DNA of 64,000 nucleotides from Pseudobutyrivibrio xylanivorans DSM 14809 (GTDB lineage Bacteria > Bacillota > Clostridia > Lachnospirales > Lachnospiraceae), in assembly GCF_900141825.1 (NCBI RefSeq), contig NZ_FQYQ01000003.1, forward strand, positions 62,001 to 126,000. The letters are read 5' to 3'. The notes beneath the pieces are model-generated. The model saw only the letters and a program-made list of their open reading frames with translations, had not been told where the DNA came from and did not search any database. Positions 2,698 to 38,774 of this stretch are shown one piece after another. The position numbers and the translations under genes were made by a program. Within the stretch, counting starts at the first letter, position 1. Each line of letters opens with the position of its first letter.

Positions 2698-3773
2698 TTA
2701 TTAAATCTCTCGTATTGTTCAACCTCTGAATCCTGAAACTTAAGTGCGTTATGAAAAACCTCATCAGTAAGACGAAGCATATGTGCCATCATAACAGCCC
2801 CTGCACCTTCGCCTACTGCCATCTTTCCATCAATAACAGGCTCAATATTGAGCTTGCCTGCGATTTTTCTTGCTACAGGCTCCTTACTGATATGAGATGG
2901 AATGATATAATCCTTAGAATTATCAAGTAATCTGTCCGCCACAAGTGCAGAAACCATACTGAGCATTCCATCAAGAATAATTGGCACCTTATATAACGCA
3001 CCTCCAATAACAATTCCAGTCATTGCCGCAAGCTCAAGTCCACCAAAATTACTACAGATTTCAACTGGGTCTAATCCACTGTATTTTGAAAGTGCCATAG
3101 ATACTACTGCACGTTTTCTGCTGAAGCCCTCATCATCAAGACCAGCACCTCTGCCAGTGACTGCCTCTGCATTTAAATCAAGTAAGTACCCAGCCATAAC
3201 TGAGGCTGATGTAGTATTTCCTATTCCCATTTCGCCAATAAGAATAATATTTTTGCCTTCATCCTGACTATCCTTAACCAAATCCATTCCCACCTGAACG
3301 GCACGTGAAAACTCTTCCACAGACATGGCTGGTTGCTTAAGGAAATTGCAGGTGCCATACTTAACTCTTCGGTTAAGGGTATAAGGAACTTCTTCAGAAT
3401 AATTTATTCCCACATCCACAGACAAGACATCTATACCCAGATATTTAGCCATAACACCAGCAGTAGTAACACCCTTGCCAATATTTGTAGCACAGATTCT
3501 TGTAACATCCTGGCTTGTTTGGCTAACTCCCTCTTCTACTATGCCATGATCACCACAGCACACAATCAGTTTCATATGGGATAAATCAGGTGCTTTGAAT
3601 CCCTGTATTGCTGCAATCTTTGAATATACTGCCTCAAAGGTACCAAAACTTCCAATCGGTTTTGCTACCTTATCCCATTCATTTTGCATCTCCTTTAAGG
3701 CTTCCTTATCAACAGGCTCTACTTTAAGCTTGTTTTCGAGTACGTCGTCAAATAAATATCTAATGTCCCCCAT
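2694..3773 (-). CDS. cobT: Nicotinate-nucleotide--dimethylbenzimidazole phosphoribosyltransferase CobT
   Basis: 359 residues, full length. Makes alpha-ribazole phosphate from a lower-ligand base and nicotinate mononucleotide. Family motifs: the N-terminal NEWDKVAKPIGSFGTFE; CCGDHGIVEEGVSQTSQDVT; GIGNTTSASVMAGY; the TGRGAGLDDEGFSRK motif; and AVGEGAGAVM near the C-terminus with the family's catalytic glutamate region. Its start overlaps the 3' end of cbiA by 14 nt and its end overlaps cobU by 4 nt. Nothing here tells which lower-ligand base is used. Confidence 0.95.
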   Translation of the reverse strand: MGDIRYLFDDVLENKLKVEPVDKEALKEMQNEWDKVAKPIGSFGTFEAVYSKIAAIQGFKAPDLSHMKLIVCCGDHGIVEEGVSQTSQDVTRICATNIGKGVTTAGVMAKYLGIDVLSVDVGINYSEEVPYTLNRRVKYGTCNFLKQPAMSVEEFSRAVQVGMDLVKDSQDEGKNIILIGEMGIGNTTSASVMAGYLLDLNAEAVTGRGAGLDDEGFSRKRAVVSMALSKYSGLDPVEICSNFGGLELAAMTGIVIGGALYKVPIILDGMLSMVSALVADRLLDNSKDYIIPSHISKEPVARKIAGKLNIEPVIDGKMAVGEGAGAVMMAHMLRLTDEVFHNALKFQDSEVEQYERFNK

Positions 3774-8968: not shown

Positions 8969-9814
8969 CTAGGCTTCCCCTTGAGGGTTGCTAGGCTCCA
9001 GTGGAGCCTGTTCAGCAACGACCGAGCCGGAAGGTGAGACAAGGTGGTCCGAAGGTGACTGATGAGGTGTCCTATACATGGTCTCAAAACTTGGATCATA
9101 AAGCTTACTCAAAGAATAATTAGACTTCGCAATTACGTTTCCAACAAGTATCACCGCCAGATTGCTAATTCCTTTAGCCTTGGCAGTACTTGCAAGAGTT
9201 CCTACCGTACAAATATATTTTTCTTCATCTGGCCAGGTGGCCTTGTAAACAATTGCTGCAGGGGTGTTTTTATCGTATCCGCCCCTAACCAGTCTCTCCT
9301 GAAGTTCCTCAAGCATACCAGCACTTAGATAGATTGCCATGGATGCTCCATGAGCTGCAAAACTTTCTATGCTCTCCTTTTCCGGAACTGAGGTCCTGCC
9401 CTCCATTCTGGTTATTATCAAAGACTGACTAATATCTGGAAGTGTATATTCCAAATTAAGAGAAGCCGCTGCTCCAAAGCATGCGCTGACTCCTGGGCAG
9501 CTCTCATATGCAATATTGTTTTCATCTAAAATATGCATCTGCTCCTGAACAGCACCGTAAATACTTGGCTCGCCAGTATGAAGTCTAACAAGAGTTTTTC
9601 TCTCCCTGTCGGATTTAAGCATTACTTCCATAACTTCATCCAAAGTCATAGTGGCACTGTTGTAGATTTCACAGCTGTCTTTCGCATATTCCAAAAGCTC
9701 TGGATTAACCAAAGAGCCAGCGTAAATAATCACATCAGCCAGCTGCAAAAGCTTCATTCCTCTTACTGTAATAAGATCTGCTGCGCCACATCCTGCGCCA
9801 ACGAAATAAATCAT
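8969..9814 (-). CDS. cbiF: Precorrin-4 C11-methyltransferase CbiF with a repeat-encoded C-terminal tail
   Basis: Residues 1-248 are a complete tetrapyrrole methylase: IYFVGAGCGAADLITVRG, VRLHTGEPSIYGA, SCPGVSACFGAAA, the ITRMEGRTSVP motif, and the SKLYDPSFE ending typical of CbiF/CobM. From residue 249 the protein runs into the GGCTTCCCC-family repeat at 8972-9070, read in reverse, which adds about 33 residues (TPHQSPSDHLVSPSGS... ending NPQGEA) before a TAG just outside the repeat. The catalytic part should be intact because the insertion lies after the native C-terminus. The TAG overlaps the Shine-Dalgarno sequence of cbiG. Confidence 0.94.
   Translation of the reverse strand: MIYFVGAGCGAADLITVRGMKLLQLADVIIYAGSLVNPELLEYAKDSCEIYNSATMTLDEVMEVMLKSDRERKTLVRLHTGEPSIYGAVQEQMHILDENNIAYESCPGVSACFGAAASLNLEYTLPDISQSLIITRMEGRTSVPEKESIESFAAHGASMAIYLSAGMLEELQERLVRGGYDKNTPAAIVYKATWPDEEKYICTVGTLASTAKAKGISNLAVILVGNVIAKSNYSLSKLYDPSFETMYRTPHQSPSDHLVSPSGSVVAEQAPLEPSNPQGEA
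8972..9070 (+). repeat. Structured repeat copy R1 (99 bp), in frame at the 3' end of cbiF
   Basis: Runs from GGCTTCCCCTTGAGGG to GATGAGGTGT on the plus strand. It contains a strong hairpin TTGCT-AGGCTCC-AGT-GGAGCCT with AGCAA closing the outer arm. It is 99 nt (33 codons) and free of stops in the cbiF frame. Near-identical to R2 (12436-12534) and R5 (38674-38774), and related in layout to R4 in rsmF and the short R3. Confidence 0.93.
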
Positions 9815-9826
9815 AAATCCTCCAAT

Positions 9827-11326
9827 TTATTTTAGTATGCTGTAAATATAATCCATATCTAAATTCTCTCTAACTATGGCTGCAAGCTTATCGTACTCAG
9901 CATCCTTTAGTTGCTGGTAATCAACTCCAGCTCCATCTAGATTTAGGCCTTTTGACTGGGCAATTGCCTCGGCAATCCTATATGCCAAATCACCATTATC
10001 AAATATTCCATGTACATAGGTGCCCATTAGGTTTTTATTTTGTACGAGAATAATATTCCCTTCGTCGTCTCGTTCAATTATTTCAGGTAAACCTAAATCC
10101 TGTTCTATAGTAGTAACACCATTATGAATCTCATAACCAACGAACTCTTCACCGGCGATTGAGGAAAATACATTAGTCAAATCATCAAAGCAATCCTCAG
10201 TCTGACTACGATACTTTTCCCCACTAAGAACGGTTTTAAGCGAGAACAGCTCCATACCTCTTATTGAACCGCCTTCCTCTACCGCCTCAGGGTCGTCAAT
10301 GATATTCCCCATCATCTGGAATCCACCACATATACCTACCACAGGCTTATTAAGTGCAAAGCGCTTAATAGCTGCCTCCATGCCGGATTCTCTCATCCAT
10401 CTCAAATCAGAGATTGTGTTCTTACTGCCAGGTATAATTACCATATCTGCATCAGTAAATTCTCTTGGATTTGAAATAAAACTGACTTTAACGCCTGGAA
10501 TATTTTCAAATGGAGCTATGTCCGTAAAATTTGAAATTCTAGGTAATCTTACCACGGCTATTTCTATCGTATTTACGATATCACCATAGTCATAAGTATT
10601 TGATAGTCTTTCACTTAGGCTATCTTCATCATCTATCATAAGTCTGGCATATGGAACTGTTCCCACAACAGGTACCTTTCCGCGCTCCTCAAGCATTTCT
10701 ATGCCAGAATCTAAAAGACTTTTATCCCCTCTAAATTTATTAATAATCAGCCCCTTTACTCGCTGTCTTTCCTGTGGTTCTAAAAGCTCCAAAGTACCTA
10801 AAAGCTGAGCAAACACACCACCTCTATCTATATCACCAACTAAAAGTACGGGAGCATCTACCAGCTCAGCCATACCCATATTTACAATGTCATCTCTCTT
10901 AAGATTAATTTCAGCAGGGCTTCCTGCTCCTTCTATCACAATGATGTCAGCCCATTCTTCAAGCTTATTGAATGCAGCCATAATATCAGGAACCAATTTT
11001 TTCTTATATGCGAAATAATCTCTGGCAGACATGTTTCCAATAGCCTCACCGTTTACAATAACCTGACTTCCGATATCATTTGTTGGCTTTAACAAAATCG
11101 GATTCATGTAAACTGATGGTGCCACTCCTGCACATTCAGCCTGCATAGCCTGTGCCCTGCCAAGCTCCAAACCGTCTGCTGTTACAAATGAATTTAGAGC
11201 CATATTCTGTGACTTAAATGGCGCCACTTTATAACCATCCTGCTTAAAAATGCGACACAGGGCACCTACCAAAAGACTCTTTCCAACATTTGACATGGTC
11301 CCCTGAATCATTATTACTTTTGACAT
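9827..11326 (-). CDS. cbiP: Cobyric acid synthase CbiP (CobQ)
   Basis: 499 residues, full length. Amidates the b, d, e and g side chains of adenosylcobyrinic acid a,c-diamide using glutamine and ATP. N-terminal synthetase domain: MIQGTMSNVGKS P-loop, PFKSQNMALNSF, MNPILLKPTND, and IVIEGAGSPAEINL. C-terminal glutaminase domain: VIIPGSKNTISDL, then VVGICGGFQMMG with the nucleophilic Cys and GTYVHGIFDN with the catalytic His. Overlaps the end of cbiD by 13 nt and is separated from cbiF by 12 nt. Confidence 0.96.
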   Translation of the reverse strand: MSKVIMIQGTMSNVGKSLLVGALCRIFKQDGYKVAPFKSQNMALNSFVTADGLELGRAQAMQAECAGVAPSVYMNPILLKPTNDIGSQVIVNGEAIGNMSARDYFAYKKKLVPDIMAAFNKLEEWADIIVIEGAGSPAEINLKRDDIVNMGMAELVDAPVLLVGDIDRGGVFAQLLGTLELLEPQERQRVKGLIINKFRGDKSLLDSGIEMLEERGKVPVVGTVPYARLMIDDEDSLSERLSNTYDYGDIVNTIEIAVVRLPRISNFTDIAPFENIPGVKVSFISNPREFTDADMVIIPGSKNTISDLRWMRESGMEAAIKRFALNKPVVGICGGFQMMGNIIDDPEAVEEGGSIRGMELFSLKTVLSGEKYRSQTEDCFDDLTNVFSSIAGEEFVGYEIHNGVTTIEQDLGLPEIIERDDEGNIILVQNKNLMGTYVHGIFDNGDLAYRIAEAIAQSKGLNLDGAGVDYQQLKDAEYDKLAAIVRENLDMDYIYSILK

Positions 11327-12549
11327 TCTAATAATTTTCCTCTACTGTTTGCAGACTCCGCTAGAAGTCCAAATTCATTTGAATATAAAATGCAATCGAG
11401 TTTAATTCTTCCCTGAGCTCTAAAATCCAGATAAAACAATATCTTCTCAAGAACTATGTCCATAGTTGGCTTAAGGTATCCTGCATCATCAATAATATGC
11501 AAGGCTTCCTCAGTGTTGAGACATTCAAGTATTTTTCTTGCCAACTCTCCATCACAACCGGCTCTTAAAGCACATGCTGAAAGAATCTCCATTCTGGAAT
11601 CCGCCTCATGGGAATGTGTATTCATAATGCCACCAGCCACCTTAACAAGCTTTCCAATATGACCTGTTATAAGCATAGCTTCAAAACCAAGCTTGAGGCA
11701 CATGTCTACAGTCTCTCCAATAAAGTTTGAGCATTTTACACTCTTATCCAAATCATAGCCATAATGCTCCTTCATGAACTTAAGTCCGTAATTTCCTGGA
11801 GTAACAATCGCAGTCTTAAAACCTAATTCCTTCTTTTGCTTCAGCTCTACTTCAATTGTATCTATGAGAGCCTTTGCACTCATTGGCTCCACAATACCAG
11901 TGGTCCCTAAAACCGAAATTCCATTTACTATTCCAAGTCGTGGATTAAAGGTCTTGCTTGCCAGCTCCACTCCCTCTGGAATAGAAATAATTATCTGAAG
12001 CTTTCCATTGAAATCCAATAGCTTGCAAACCTCAGTCACTTCCTTTTCAATCATCTCTCTTGGGACATGATTAATAGCGGCATTTCCAACAGGCTGATCA
12101 AGTCCTGGCAAAGTCACTCGCCCTACTCCTTCACCACCATCTATCTCAAGCTCAAGATTCTGTCCTGTTGTAGCCTCAATAGCTGGTGTAATCACACTTA
12201 CTGTTGCTGTCACATGACAGCCTGTAGTCACATCAGGATCATCTCCGCCATCCTTTATCACAGCGCAACTCACCTGTTTTTCCTGTCGATTCACATCCAC
12301 AATATCAGCCTTGAACATGATTCCCGCAGGGGTCTCAATTTCAATATTCAGTTTTTCCTGCCCTGTGAAAAGCATGTACGCCGCCGCCTTCGCCGCCGCT
12401 GCCGCACAGCTTCCTGTGGTGAATCCTTTTTTTAAGGCTTCCCCTTGAGGGTTGCTAGGCTCCAGTGGAGCCTGTTTAGCAACGACCGAAGCGGGAGCTG
12501 AGAATGCTGTCACCGAAGGTGACTGATGAGGTGTCCTTTTTTCAATCAT
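11314..12549 (-). CDS. cbiD: Cobalt-precorrin-5B C1-methyltransferase CbiD with a repeat-encoded N-terminus
   Basis: 411 residues. From residue 39 the protein is standard CbiD: KKGFTTGSCAAAAAKAA, VTGCHVTATVSV, GEGVGRVTLPGL, the GTTGIVEPMS motif and VTPGNYGLKF; it C1-methylates cobalt-precorrin-5B. Residues 6-38 are translated from the 99-bp repeat R2 and are non-homologous. No ATG, GTG or TTG lies at the natural start region (the codon before KKGFTTG is TTA), so initiation must use the ATG at 12549. That ATG overlaps the stop of the upstream nuclease gene (ATGATTGA) and has an AGGA six nt upstream inside that gene. The element thus appears to have replaced the native start and couples cbiD to its own gene. 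Confidence 0.92.
   Translation of the reverse strand: MIEKRTPHQSPSVTAFSAPASVVAKQAPLEPSNPQGEALKKGFTTGSCAAAAAKAAAYMLFTGQEKLNIEIETPAGIMFKADIVDVNRQEKQVSCAVIKDGGDDPDVTTGCHVTATVSVITPAIEATTGQNLELEIDGGEGVGRVTLPGLDQPVGNAAINHVPREMIEKEVTEVCKLLDFNGKLQIIISIPEGVELASKTFNPRLGIVNGISVLGTTGIVEPMSAKALIDTIEVELKQKKELGFKTAIVTPGNYGLKFMKEHYGYDLDKSVKCSNFIGETVDMCLKLGFEAMLITGHIGKLVKVAGGIMNTHSHEADSRMEILSACALRAGCDGELARKILECLNTEEALHIIDDAGYLKPTMDIVLEKILFYLDFRAQGRIKLDCILYSNEFGLLAESANSRGKLLECQK
12436..12534 (+). repeat. Structured repeat copy R2 (99 bp), forms the 5' coding end of cbiD
   Basis: GGCTTCCCCTTGAGGG through AGGCTCCAGTGGAGCCT and GTCACC-GAA-GGTGAC to GATGAGGTGT. Same length as R1 and in frame with cbiD. It forms one end of the 520-bp putative element around the DUF559 gene, with its GATGAGGTGT end facing inward. 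Confidence 0.93.
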
Positions 12550-12901
12550 TGATTAATCCTAAATTCTTTCTTATATCATCACAAACTGCAATGAAATTCT
12601 TATTAACATCAAAATTTGAATATCTTAACACTCTAATTCCATTTTCATTTAAGAAAGTATCTCGTTTTATATCTTTTATATGCCCCTCTTCCTCATAATG
12701 CTGACTTCCATCCAGTTCAATTACAATCTTTTTTTGCGCACAATAAAAATCAACTATATAATTACCAATTATTTGTTGTCTCTTTACAGTTAATGGTAAT
12801 ACCTTTAAACAATCATACCAAAGGCGCTTTTCTTCTTTTGTCATAGACCTTCTCAATTTCTGAGAATTTTTCTTCAGATTTGGATTATAGTTCTCGTTCA
12901 T
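12542..12901 (-). CDS. DUF559 (Vsr / PD-(D/E)XK-like) endonuclease-domain protein
   Basis: 119 residues. Recognisable as DUF559: the N-terminal MTKEEKRLWYDCLK, then the nuclease-like core YIVDFYCAQKKIVIELDGSQH (Asp51, Glu62, Asp64, His68) and the RDTFLNENGIRVLRYSN strand with conserved Arg93. The fold is related to very-short-patch repair endonucleases. There is no methyltransferase or restriction gene nearby. Translation starts immediately downstream of repeat R3, whose conserved GATGAGGTG end lies 5-7 nt from the ATG and looks like a Shine-Dalgarno sequence. The stop overlaps the cbiD start. It is unrelated to cobalamin chemistry and is the likely cargo or mobiliser of the repeat element; DNA-cleaving activity is inferred from the family. 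Confidence 0.88.
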   Translation of the reverse strand: MNENYNPNLKKNSQKLRRSMTKEEKRLWYDCLKVLPLTVKRQQIIGNYIVDFYCAQKKIVIELDGSQHYEEEGHIKDIKRDTFLNENGIRVLRYSNFDVNKNFIAVCDDIRKNLGLIND

Positions 12902-12905
12902 ATGA

Positions 12906-12955
12906 ACACCTCATCCGTCAGCTTCGCTGACACCTTCCCCTCAAGGGGAAGGCTT
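12906..12955 (-). repeat. Short structured repeat copy R3 (50 bp)
   Basis: Read on minus: AAGCCTTCCCC-TTGA-GGGGAAGG hairpin, then GTCAGC-GAA-GCTGAC hairpin, then GATGAGGTGT directly before the DUF559 ATG. It lacks the central AGGCTCC hairpin of R1, R2 and R5 but keeps both ends and the terminal stem-loop, with compensatory stem changes relative to R2 (GTCACC/GGTGAC). It forms the right inverted end of the putative element. Confidence 0.88.
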
Positions 12956-18852: not shown

Positions 18853-18904
18853 TCAATTCAATCAAAATCATGAATTAAGATTTGAAAGTCCGCAAATCAT
18901 TAAT

Positions 18905-19085
18905 TTGAAGACTAGGCAGGTCTCCTGACTTCGATCAACATCTACATTCCCTTCCCAAGCATGCTCAGTGATATAAATGCAGACTCCCTAACACAGTGAC
19001 GGCTTCGCTCTGGATTCTCACCAGATTCCCTTTTCACCCATACCAACTTCGCAAATACGAAATCTATAGGCACCTAATCTTTTGA
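18905..19085 (-). promoter_or_regulatory. Cobalamin riboswitch (AdoCbl-type aptamer)
   Basis: Minus strand reads, in order, TTAGGTGCC, GGGAA...CTGGTGAGAATCCAG, the GCCGTCACTGT core, GGGAAGG and the B12 box AGTCAGGAGACCTGCCTA at about 18911-18928. These are the conserved blocks of the cobalamin aptamer in the right order and spacing. It precedes cbiK and should control the whole cobalamin/transport operon with the terminator at 18822-18852. Confidence 0.95.
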
Positions 19086-19095
19086 AACATATTAA

Positions 19096-24826: not shown

Positions 24827-26214
24827 AATAAACGTAACCCCTTCGGATAATGATTTTTTATCTGACCCTTAACAGCCTTTCCCCATCCTACAGAATATCC
24901 ATCTACAGTAATGAGTGTCCAGCCATCCTGTACATCAGCCATCACTGACTGTCCTCTAAGATAATTCTGAACATCCTGACCATCAGCTGGTAAATCGAAG
25001 CTGTTTTTAACTTCATCCCTTGTGAGTGCTAATGCCAGTGCATGACTAGGTTCAAATCTGTTTTTCTTAAGTGTACCAAGGAAAAGTCCACCTCGAAGTA
25101 CATGGAGTTTTGAAAAATCAGGACAGTTGTCGGGAAGCAGGTATAACAACACCTCATCCGAGCCCTTCGGGCCCACCTTGTCTCCGCTTCCGCTCCGGTC
25201 TGCTCGAACCTGAGGTCCACTGGACCTCTCTCGCCCTTCAAGGGGAAGGCATTTATCTAATGGAATATCAATTCTTAAAAAATCAAAGTATTCTTTAATC
25301 TTTTTATTTACTTTCTTTATTGAGATTACCGCTCTATCAGCAGCGCACTCTTCTCTACGACCATCTGAATCTGCTTTCTCCAGGAGAGCCGCATAATGCC
25401 CCTCTCCCTTTACCTCATGAGGCCACAAGCGCCTTTCCTCAATAAGAATCATATCTGGATGACGACTGATGAAAGCAGCCACTGCTTCCTCATCCTCCAG
25501 TTTTGCAAATGTACAGGTGCTATAACACATTCTTCCACCAGGAATAAGCATCTCGTAAGCTCTGTCTAAAATCTCTGCCTGACGGTCAGCACACATCTCT
25601 ACGGATTCAAGGGACCACTCATCACATGCATCATGATTCTTTCTGAACATTCCCTCTCCAGAACAAGGCGCATCTACCATTATCTTATCAAAATATTCTG
25701 GGAATGTATCTGCCAGCTTATCTGGATACTCAGATGTAACAATGCAATTTCTGATACCCAGTCTTTCTACATTTTCAGATAAAATCTTGGCACGGTTTTT
25801 CATCGGTTCGTTTGATACAAGAATTCCTTCACCGTTTAAATAGCCTGCTATCTGCGTAGACTTACCACCAGGAGCGGCACATAAATCCAGACAGATATCC
25901 CCTGGAACTGGGGCTAACATTTCTACAGGAAGCTGAGCCGAAGCATCCTGTATATAATATACACCTGCAGCATGATATGGATGAAGTCCTGGTCTGTAAG
26001 TCTCATCATAGTAATATCCGTTTTTACTCCAATCCACTTTTCCTGTAAGCATAGATGACATAGTTTCCACTGCCTTATCATCTGCTTTTATAGGATTAAA
26101 TCTCAGTGCTGATATCTTATTTTCCTCATAAGAACGCAAAAACGCATGGAAGTCAGGGCCTAAGTCCTGCTCCATGCGATTAACAAAATCAATTGGTAAA
26201 AAAGATGTATCCAT
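24823..26214 (-). CDS. rsmF: RsmB/RsmF-type 16S rRNA m5C methyltransferase with an in-frame repeat insertion
   Basis: 463 residues. NOL1/NOP2/Sun methyltransferase core: DICLDLCAAPGGKSTQIA SAM motif, IMVDAPCSGEGMFRK and CYSTCTF with the two catalytic cysteines, then a C-terminal RNA-binding region (FDLPADGQDVQNYLRGQ). Residues about 322-355 are encoded by repeat copy R4 (25149-25250): 34 codons, no stop, compositionally foreign (LPLEGRERSSGPQVRADRSG...). The insertion lies after the catalytic domain, in the linker to the C-terminal domain, so activity may be retained. Overlaps yitT by 4 nt and abuts argS with no gap. Confidence 0.88.
   Translation of the reverse strand: MDTSFLPIDFVNRMEQDLGPDFHAFLRSYEENKISALRFNPIKADDKAVETMSSMLTGKVDWSKNGYYYDETYRPGLHPYHAAGVYYIQDASAQLPVEMLAPVPGDICLDLCAAPGGKSTQIAGYLNGEGILVSNEPMKNRAKILSENVERLGIRNCIVTSEYPDKLADTFPEYFDKIMVDAPCSGEGMFRKNHDACDEWSLESVEMCADRQAEILDRAYEMLIPGGRMCYSTCTFAKLEDEEAVAAFISRHPDMILIEERRLWPHEVKGEGHYAALLEKADSDGRREECAADRAVISIKKVNKKIKEYFDFLRIDIPLDKCLPLEGRERSSGPQVRADRSGSGDKVGPKGSDEVLLYLLPDNCPDFSKLHVLRGGLFLGTLKKNRFEPSHALALALTRDEVKNSFDLPADGQDVQNYLRGQSVMADVQDGWTLITVDGYSVGWGKAVKGQIKNHYPKGLRLL
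25149..25250 (-). repeat. Structured repeat copy R4 (102 bp), in frame inside rsmF
   Basis: On minus: GCCTTCCCCTTGAAGGG, a central hairpin GAGAGGTCC-AGT-GGACCTC, a GACCGGAGCGG and GGAGACAAGGTG block, the terminal stem GGCCC-GAA-GGGCT and GATGAGGTGT. The layout equals R1, R2 and R5 but many stem bases differ in a compensatory way. It is exactly 34 codons and reads through rsmF. Local G+C is much higher than the surrounding gene. Confidence 0.9.
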
Positions 26215-38673: not shown

Positions 38674-38774
38674 GGCTTCCCCTTGAGGGTTGCTAGGCTC
38701 CAGTGGAGCCTGTTCAGCAACGACCGAGCCGGGAGGTGAGACAAGCTGTCAGCTTTAGCTGACTGATGAGGTGT
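38674..38774 (+). repeat. Structured repeat copy R5 (101 bp) between glnN and the amtB leader
   Basis: GGCTTCCCCTTGAGGG, hairpin AGGCTCCAGTGGAGCCT, terminal stem GTCAGCT-TT-AGCTGAC and GATGAGGTGT, the last base falling on the glnN stop codon. Intergenic, and not a multiple of three, unlike the copies in genes. Confidence 0.93.

Follow-up and report, generated by a model that had tools for sequence, protein, structure and literature searches.

What is a DUF559 nuclease gene doing between two inverted, structured repeats, and do gene and repeats move together? The question is raised by a stretch of 64,000 nucleotides from Pseudobutyrivibrio xylanivorans DSM 14809 (contig NZ_FQYQ01000003.1, positions 62,001 to 126,000; the window), in which two repeats, R2 and R3, enclose such a gene and three further copies, R1, R4 and R5, stand alone. 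The observation of a DUF559 gene between inverted structured repeats is confirmed as both real and general and, judging from sequence comparison, the repeat–gene–repeat arrangement behaves as a mobile unit of ~450–500 bp that moves without target duplication. We favour, with a probability of a little under 0.6, the view that it is a compact autonomous mobile element with triplex ends on which a Vsr/EDxHD-type nuclease acts, solo and paired repeats being its non-autonomous derivatives. The evidence comprises the association of gene and repeat, the boundaries of the unit, the existence of filled, solo-repeat and empty sites, the lack of a detectable target duplication, a mirror rule with co-variation in the repeats, and a predicted nuclease fold; that DUF559 drives movement by acting on the repeat ends is what we infer from these.

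The repeat–DUF559–repeat unit in the window

The unit and the solo repeats are as follows:

12436..12953, no strand assigned: whole unit, R2–DUF559 gene–R3; both repeat tails point toward the gene
12436..12535, + strand: R2, long-form repeat of ~100 bp, hairpin 1 broken by an insert, tail TGATGAGGTGT
12542..12901, − strand: DUF559 (PF04480) nuclease gene, 119 amino acids (aa), PF04480 E-value 5.5e-30
12906..12953, − strand: R3, short-form repeat of 48 bp; hairpin 1 CCTTCCCC-TTGA-GGGGAAGG, hairpin 2 GTCAGC-GAA-GCTGAC, tail GGATGAGGTGT
8972..9070, + strand: R1, solo long-form repeat, at the C-terminal end of the open reading frame (ORF) 8969-9814 (−)
25149..25250, − strand: R4, solo long-form repeat
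38674..38774, + strand: R5, solo long-form repeat

The arrangement agrees with an earlier interpretation of this DNA made from its letters alone (the sequence-only reading), which had placed R2 and R3 in inverted orientation around the gene and the other three copies on their own. The two flanks are unequal, one being of the long and the other of the short form. That reading also took the repeat ends to be fixed, which does not hold throughout: the end is GGCTTCCCC in R1, R2 and R5 and GCCTTCCCC in R3 and R4, a C/G switch that is itself informative. Its statement that no transposase is present was borne out for the unit, where DUF559 is the sole ORF of at least 100 aa, and for Y1 transposases, as the genome has no match to the Y1 profile (PF01797) that could act in trans.

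The repeats are dispersed and the gene is not. The count of repeats called for earlier gave 22 exact matches genome-wide to a gapped repeat pattern, which covers one sequence type of repeat only, and 0 to the reversed control pattern; R2 has 15 BLAST matches across the genome, 6 of them almost full length and 9 covering the final 26-35 bases only. The window gene is the one PF04480 match in the whole 3.4 Mb genome.

The unit is inserted in a cobalamin operon, between cbiD and the adjoining upstream gene (a precorrin-8X-type gene, called cobH here; both names are assigned from the sequences), and the same layout recurs in relatives within the genus (L157-L159). Two of the repeats are translated, in frame, as part of a protein: the cbiD ORF (11314-12549) takes its N-terminus from R2, and ORF 8969-9814 its C-terminus from R1; further cobalamin genes start or finish inside repeats in genus relatives. 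A cobalamin riboswitch (RF00174, 93 bits; 18898-19092, − strand) lies near the cobalamin genes of the window.

Homology boundaries and states of the insertion site

Homology between DUF559 loci tends to end at the repeats, which supports the earlier claim that gene and flanking repeats are mobile as a single unit. For 77 locus pairs with homology covering the ORF and a hairpin on either side of it in the query, the shared sequence overshoots the left hairpin by a median of 5 bp and the right by 4 bp. In 44 of these pairs (22 loci), each end of the block lies between -5 and +15 bp from its hairpin; pairs are not independent of one another, and the comparison has no control gene family. Alignments display the boundary in the G675 and G494 copies; it is less clean in G342, where a further repeat has inserted into the flanking repeat, and in G404 homology runs 150-200 bp past it. 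Comparison of L240 (G342) with L239 shows an entire repeat apparently inserted in the hairpin 1 loop of another, and the long-form repeats of the window may have a similar repeat-in-repeat origin.

The comparison of empty and filled sites that the sequence-only reading had proposed shows, within the genus, one site in three states: filled, with a solo repeat, and empty. The cobH–cbiD interval was compared in nine of 29 genus genomes, each with a DUF559 gene somewhere: it holds repeat–DUF559–repeat in five (G000, G302, G303, G304 and G307), a solo repeat in two (G321 and G324) and neither in two (G306 and G312). DUF559 between inverted repeats is also seen at the opposite side of cbiD (L162, L165), where the flanking tails are GATGAGGG in place of GATGAGGTG; G302 and G304 (L158, L159) have two DUF559 paralogues, one either side of cbiD. 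In another genus, a stretch of ~837 bp in G679, carrying DUF559 as well as additional repeats, stands in place of ~14 bp in G596; the flanks are 94% identical. The comparison of these two genomes covers this site alone, as the G679 contig starts at the other DUF559 site of G596.

These sites bear on the chief rival explanation, namely that DUF559 acts as a free-standing homing endonuclease with cleavage sites at or close to triplex repeats that are already present. Such repeats would provide both target and homology arms, and the gene would insert between or beside them, the repeats themselves having been spread by another agent such as a Y1 transposase. The empty G306 and G312 sites carry no repeat, so a pre-existing repeat is not required at the cobH–cbiD site; moreover, in the 44 pairs above the homologous block takes in both repeats and ends just outside them. 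Conversely, homing would accord with the target-site search, in which no duplication of lengths 3-6 was detected in the 76 loci, out of 146, that have two-sided hairpins, no offset exceeding the shuffled-flank maximum. It would also suit G595 (C9:60700-61332), where the gene looks as though inserted into a pair: DUF559 stands between two same-order repeat pairs, each a C.G-type and a G.C-type repeat head to head, resembling the type A + type B pairs of Escherichia coli. On balance, we regard homing as unlikely.

Association of DUF559 genes with the repeats

The sequence-only reading called for a search for DUF559 genes with such ends in other Clostridia; they occur there and in other phyla too. 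A species-level genome scan with a five-protein alignment gave 554 confirmed stretches, the best 80 of which (L076-L155; by their titles almost all Clostridia or other Firmicutes, with one Anaerolineaceae) were picked on protein similarity, not on repeats, and joined with three contigs (L068, L070, L071) to give 83 loci. A strictly defined repeat lies within 400 bp of 71/83 DUF559 genes, compared with 26/276 other ORFs of the same loci, and on both sides of 26/83 and 3/276, respectively. The repeats are preferentially oriented tail-in around DUF559 genes. Additionally, when the 350 bp upstream was locally aligned to the reverse complement of the 350 bp downstream, a score of at least 14 was reached in 42 of 79 DUF559 loci (those with at least 150 bp on either side) and at 6 of 320 control ORFs lying in them. 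Shuffled flanks were discarded as a control (335 versus 2.3), as shuffling destroys hairpins.

At least one repeat is present at all 13 loci examined outside this set: one on a viral contig and 12 in plasmid-collection records of other groups, namely Deinococcus, Sinorhizobium (twice), Azospirillum, Sphingomonas, Sphingobium, Synechocystis, Picosynechococcus, Pseudanabaena, Neisseria, E. coli and Photobacterium. Certain DUF559 genes interrupt functional clusters, such as the NAD(P) transhydrogenase genes in Sphingomonas and the 4-hydroxyphenylacetate cluster in Deinococcus.

A family-level sample of 299 genomes contained one genome with a true DUF559 gene; the other 37 PF04480 hits were weak (best E-value 3e-9, mostly to profile positions 66-107). 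Multi-copy repeat genomes in this sample were G000 (22 matches), G153 (21) and G075 (8), with eight more having one match each, numbers too small for a test of association. The weak hits (loci L039-L067) lie mostly in frames of ~150-180 aa and may belong to another family of nucleases that lacks these repeats; a repeat was found at 0/24 of these genes with located ORF ends (four long frames and one short flank being left out).

Two further explanations can be judged against these counts. It is scarcely credible that ordinary terminator-like or repetitive extragenic palindromic (REP) repeats lie near the gene by chance: the repeats are indeed numerous in the genomes concerned, but they are far fewer at control ORFs of the same loci, and homology boundaries fall at them. 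Passive hitchhiking, in which triplex repeats provoke breaks or recombination and host machinery shuffles DUF559 genes (otherwise selfish or defensive) between them, is more plausible than chance, and a link of triplex motifs to genome instability has been published (PMC4666352); we nonetheless consider it improbable. It does not account for the specificity for DUF559, given that none of the three control ORFs with two-sided repeats is an obvious cargo gene and that the weak PF04480-like genes lack repeats altogether, nor for the preferred tail-in orientation.

The repeats are consistent with an intrastrand triplex

The repeats share a layout of a hairpin 1 with a purine 3′ arm, a second hairpin or short linker, and a purine tail that mirrors the arm. 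In the antiparallel purine motif, the third strand follows the code G*G.C, A*A.T and T*A.T, with T opposite C.G. When hairpin 2 sets the register, six or more of seven positions obey G-G, A-A/T and C-T in 48 of 137 distinct arm/tail combinations; kinship among repeats inflates such counts, although the rule recurs in arms of differing sequence. Exchanging tails between repeats gave a mean of 12.7 and a maximum of 23 in 2000 trials, as against the 48 observed in mirror order; in direct order, 6 were observed against a mean of 2.7 and a maximum of 9. A looser repeat scan, allowing 33 spacer lengths, returned 283 mirror and 256 direct tails in the Clostridia set; it is uninformative on the mirror rule, and the anchored tests were used instead.

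The outermost stem base and the first tail base co-vary when the register is set by positions 2-7 only: G/G occurs 40 times, C/T 32, C/G 0, G/T 2 and G/A 4. This stem–tail co-variation is not explained by Watson–Crick pairing in hairpin 1 and is explained by a putative antiparallel purine-motif triplex. Both the mirror rule and the co-variation bear out the constraint on the folded form for which the sequence-only reading had argued. In having a tail that mirrors the arm, the repeats fit, as predicted structures, the published class of potential intrastrand triplex (PIT) or triplex motif (TM) elements, class II.

The DUF559 protein is predicted to have a Vsr-like fold

The window protein scores 103.9 bits against a Pfam gathering cut-off of 20.6, which seven proteins from other loci also pass, and the gene of the unit has profile matches to DUF559 and MTES_1575 only. 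Five residues (E24, D51, E62, D64 and H68) are invariant across 62 aligned DUF559 sequences. The nearest folds are those of NGO0050, the homing endonuclease I-Bth0305I and Vsr, which points to a Vsr-like catalytic fold. The NGO0050 structure (3hrl) is identical to the protein of L074 over ~100 aligned residues, and L074 has a triplex-type repeat downstream of its DUF559 gene. I-Bth0305I is the structurally closest relative of known function, a point for the homing explanation. For hitchhiking of a defence gene, there are the partial PADLOC matches of the DUF559 protein to DpdF and mREase_II.

Relationship to known systems

Hoyne et al. reportedly described PIT elements as intrastrand triplex motifs. 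PIT/TM elements and repeats of the window type have in common a hairpin with a purine third strand (the class II purine motif), many intergenic copies and inverted type A/type B pairs; the TTA second loop of E. coli type A is likewise found in L073. They differ in that many Clostridia copies have a second hairpin in place of the 3-nt loop of TM_ECO, and in that a DUF559 gene lies between two copies. The repeat class is already known, contrary to the sequence-only reading, which knew of no named system: the copies fit the intrastrand triplex motif of PMC4666352. Triplex-forming repeats, with no origin or function known, are on record from E. coli, Neisseria, Haemophilus and cyanobacteria (PMC4666352 and Hoyne et al. 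cited therein). According to PMC4666352, TM_ECO has 23 copies in K-12 and forms a stable triplex in vitro by circular dichroism and nuclear magnetic resonance, with no in vivo support; the E. coli motif is not linked to mobile elements, and its flanking genes fall into no functional class. The text of that paper gives no match for nuclease, endonuclease or DUF, and no link between DUF559 and triplex repeats was found in the literature searched, which covers few subscription journals and no bioRxiv.

YcjD of E. coli and NGO0050 belong to the same family as the window protein (DUF559, PF04480; E-value 1.4e-49 for K-12 ycjD), and a triplex-type repeat lies immediately downstream of E. coli ycjD (L073). 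The gene matches at 3366 places in 3365/5426 E. coli genomes, and the sapF-ycjD-fabI stretch is mostly present in 3333 records. The sapF-fabI site (L203, L204) is occupied by either ycjD or the eefRABCD efflux operon, the latter in L204; replacement of ycjD by eefRABCD in other E. coli strains is also described in PMC12817139.

A parallel in organization is offered by REP-associated tyrosine transposases (RAYTs) and their REPIN derivatives, in which, as here, a gene lies between inverted copies of a dispersed palindromic repeat that has solo and paired derivatives. RAYTs are HUH (Y1) transposases and PD-(D/E)XK nucleases are not HUH enzymes; the present unit differs in having a gene for a PD-(D/E)XK-type nuclease, with no Y1 enzyme of the RAYT kind, and ends that fit triplex motifs. 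EDxHD homing endonucleases such as I-Bth0305I differ from the window protein, which has 119 aa in all, no long DNA-binding region and its own repeat ends. Nor was the window gene found to lie in an intron or intein: it is a stand-alone ORF, and Rfam at the gathering threshold gives only the cobalamin riboswitch in the window; EDxHD homing endonucleases outside introns and inteins are known as well. The target-site duplication of DDE transposons and miniature inverted-repeat transposable elements was not detected in DUF559 units, the ends of which are inverted hairpins.

Co-occurrence of gene, repeat and Y1 transposase

Among the 29 genus genomes, the repeat pattern is present in 12/12 with an intact DUF559 gene and 5/17 without (Fisher p 1.2e-4). 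Across 391 genomes of the class, it is present in 32/52 with a DUF559 hit, which include four weak hits (E-values 1e-13 to 4e-15; three in long frames) and three fragments or broken genes (G351, G403, G578), and in 18/339 without (p 9e-21). When gene presence is shuffled within families, 24.0 genomes with both are expected, compared with the 32 found (p 6.5e-4); shared ancestry thus accounts for much of the raw association.

A Y1 match occurs in 8/17 repeat-bearing and 2/12 repeat-free genus genomes, and in four of the 12 with intact DUF559. Spread of the repeats by a Y1 transposase, as homing might involve, is difficult to reconcile with the 9/17 repeat-bearing genus genomes, that of the window included, which lack a Y1 match.

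Several observations weigh against an autonomous DUF559 element. Repeats occur in genomes without a DUF559 hit, an outcome that the sequence-only reading had named as counting against itself, and the within-family association is modest. Moreover, four of the five repeat-bearing genus genomes lacking intact DUF559 have a Y1 match (G299, G318, G153 and G325, that of G153 being fragments), which, like the existence of repeats without the gene, favours homing and makes a second mobiliser possible. As to the unit itself, 33/77 pairs do not end at both hairpins, homology either continuing (larger duplications, or the same locus twice) or stopping short, and one pair, L096/L229, is a single locus drawn from two collections; 12/83 loci lack a strict repeat and the majority have it on a single side. 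Nor does G679 have a clean unit at its filled site, where ~837 bp with an additional repeat substitute for the ~14 bp. Finally, E. coli ycjD is not moving now, because it is single-copy and fixed at sapF-fabI.

Proposed mechanism and significance

The most economical account is that the unit is an autonomous element bearing triplex ends and a Vsr-like nuclease, and that solo and paired repeats arose by multiplication of those ends. The purine tail would fold back as a third strand on hairpin 1, and the DUF559 protein, acting on triplex ends in cis and in trans, would recognise the folded end and nick or cut it while the DNA is single-stranded, as on the lagging strand. A copy of the unit might then reach a new site through break repair or by way of a single-stranded intermediate. 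Solo or paired repeats would be non-autonomous derivatives, by analogy with the REPINs of RAYTs. The interpretation offered by the sequence-only reading is supported in part: the mobile unit and the constraint on the folded form stand, and the arrangement also holds in other phyla. Recognition or cutting of the repeat by DUF559 and movement by peel-and-paste are conjectural, the repeats are also found in genomes without DUF559, and their class already has a name.

More tentatively, and with the odds somewhat against it, these units may constitute a new class of mobile element, defined by intrastrand DNA triplex ends and an EDxHD/Vsr-type nuclease as mobiliser, that is the source of the PIT/TM repeats in Clostridia, Proteobacteria, Cyanobacteria and Deinococcota; ycjD and NGO0050 would be its resident representatives, with the triplex being read by the protein through a stem–tail code (G with G, C with T).

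A nuclease gene travelling between triplex repeats provides a testable origin for a class of repeats whose origin was hitherto unknown. It would also give a function to the DUF559 family, ycjD of K-12 included, and may add a protein able to recognise intrastrand DNA triplexes.
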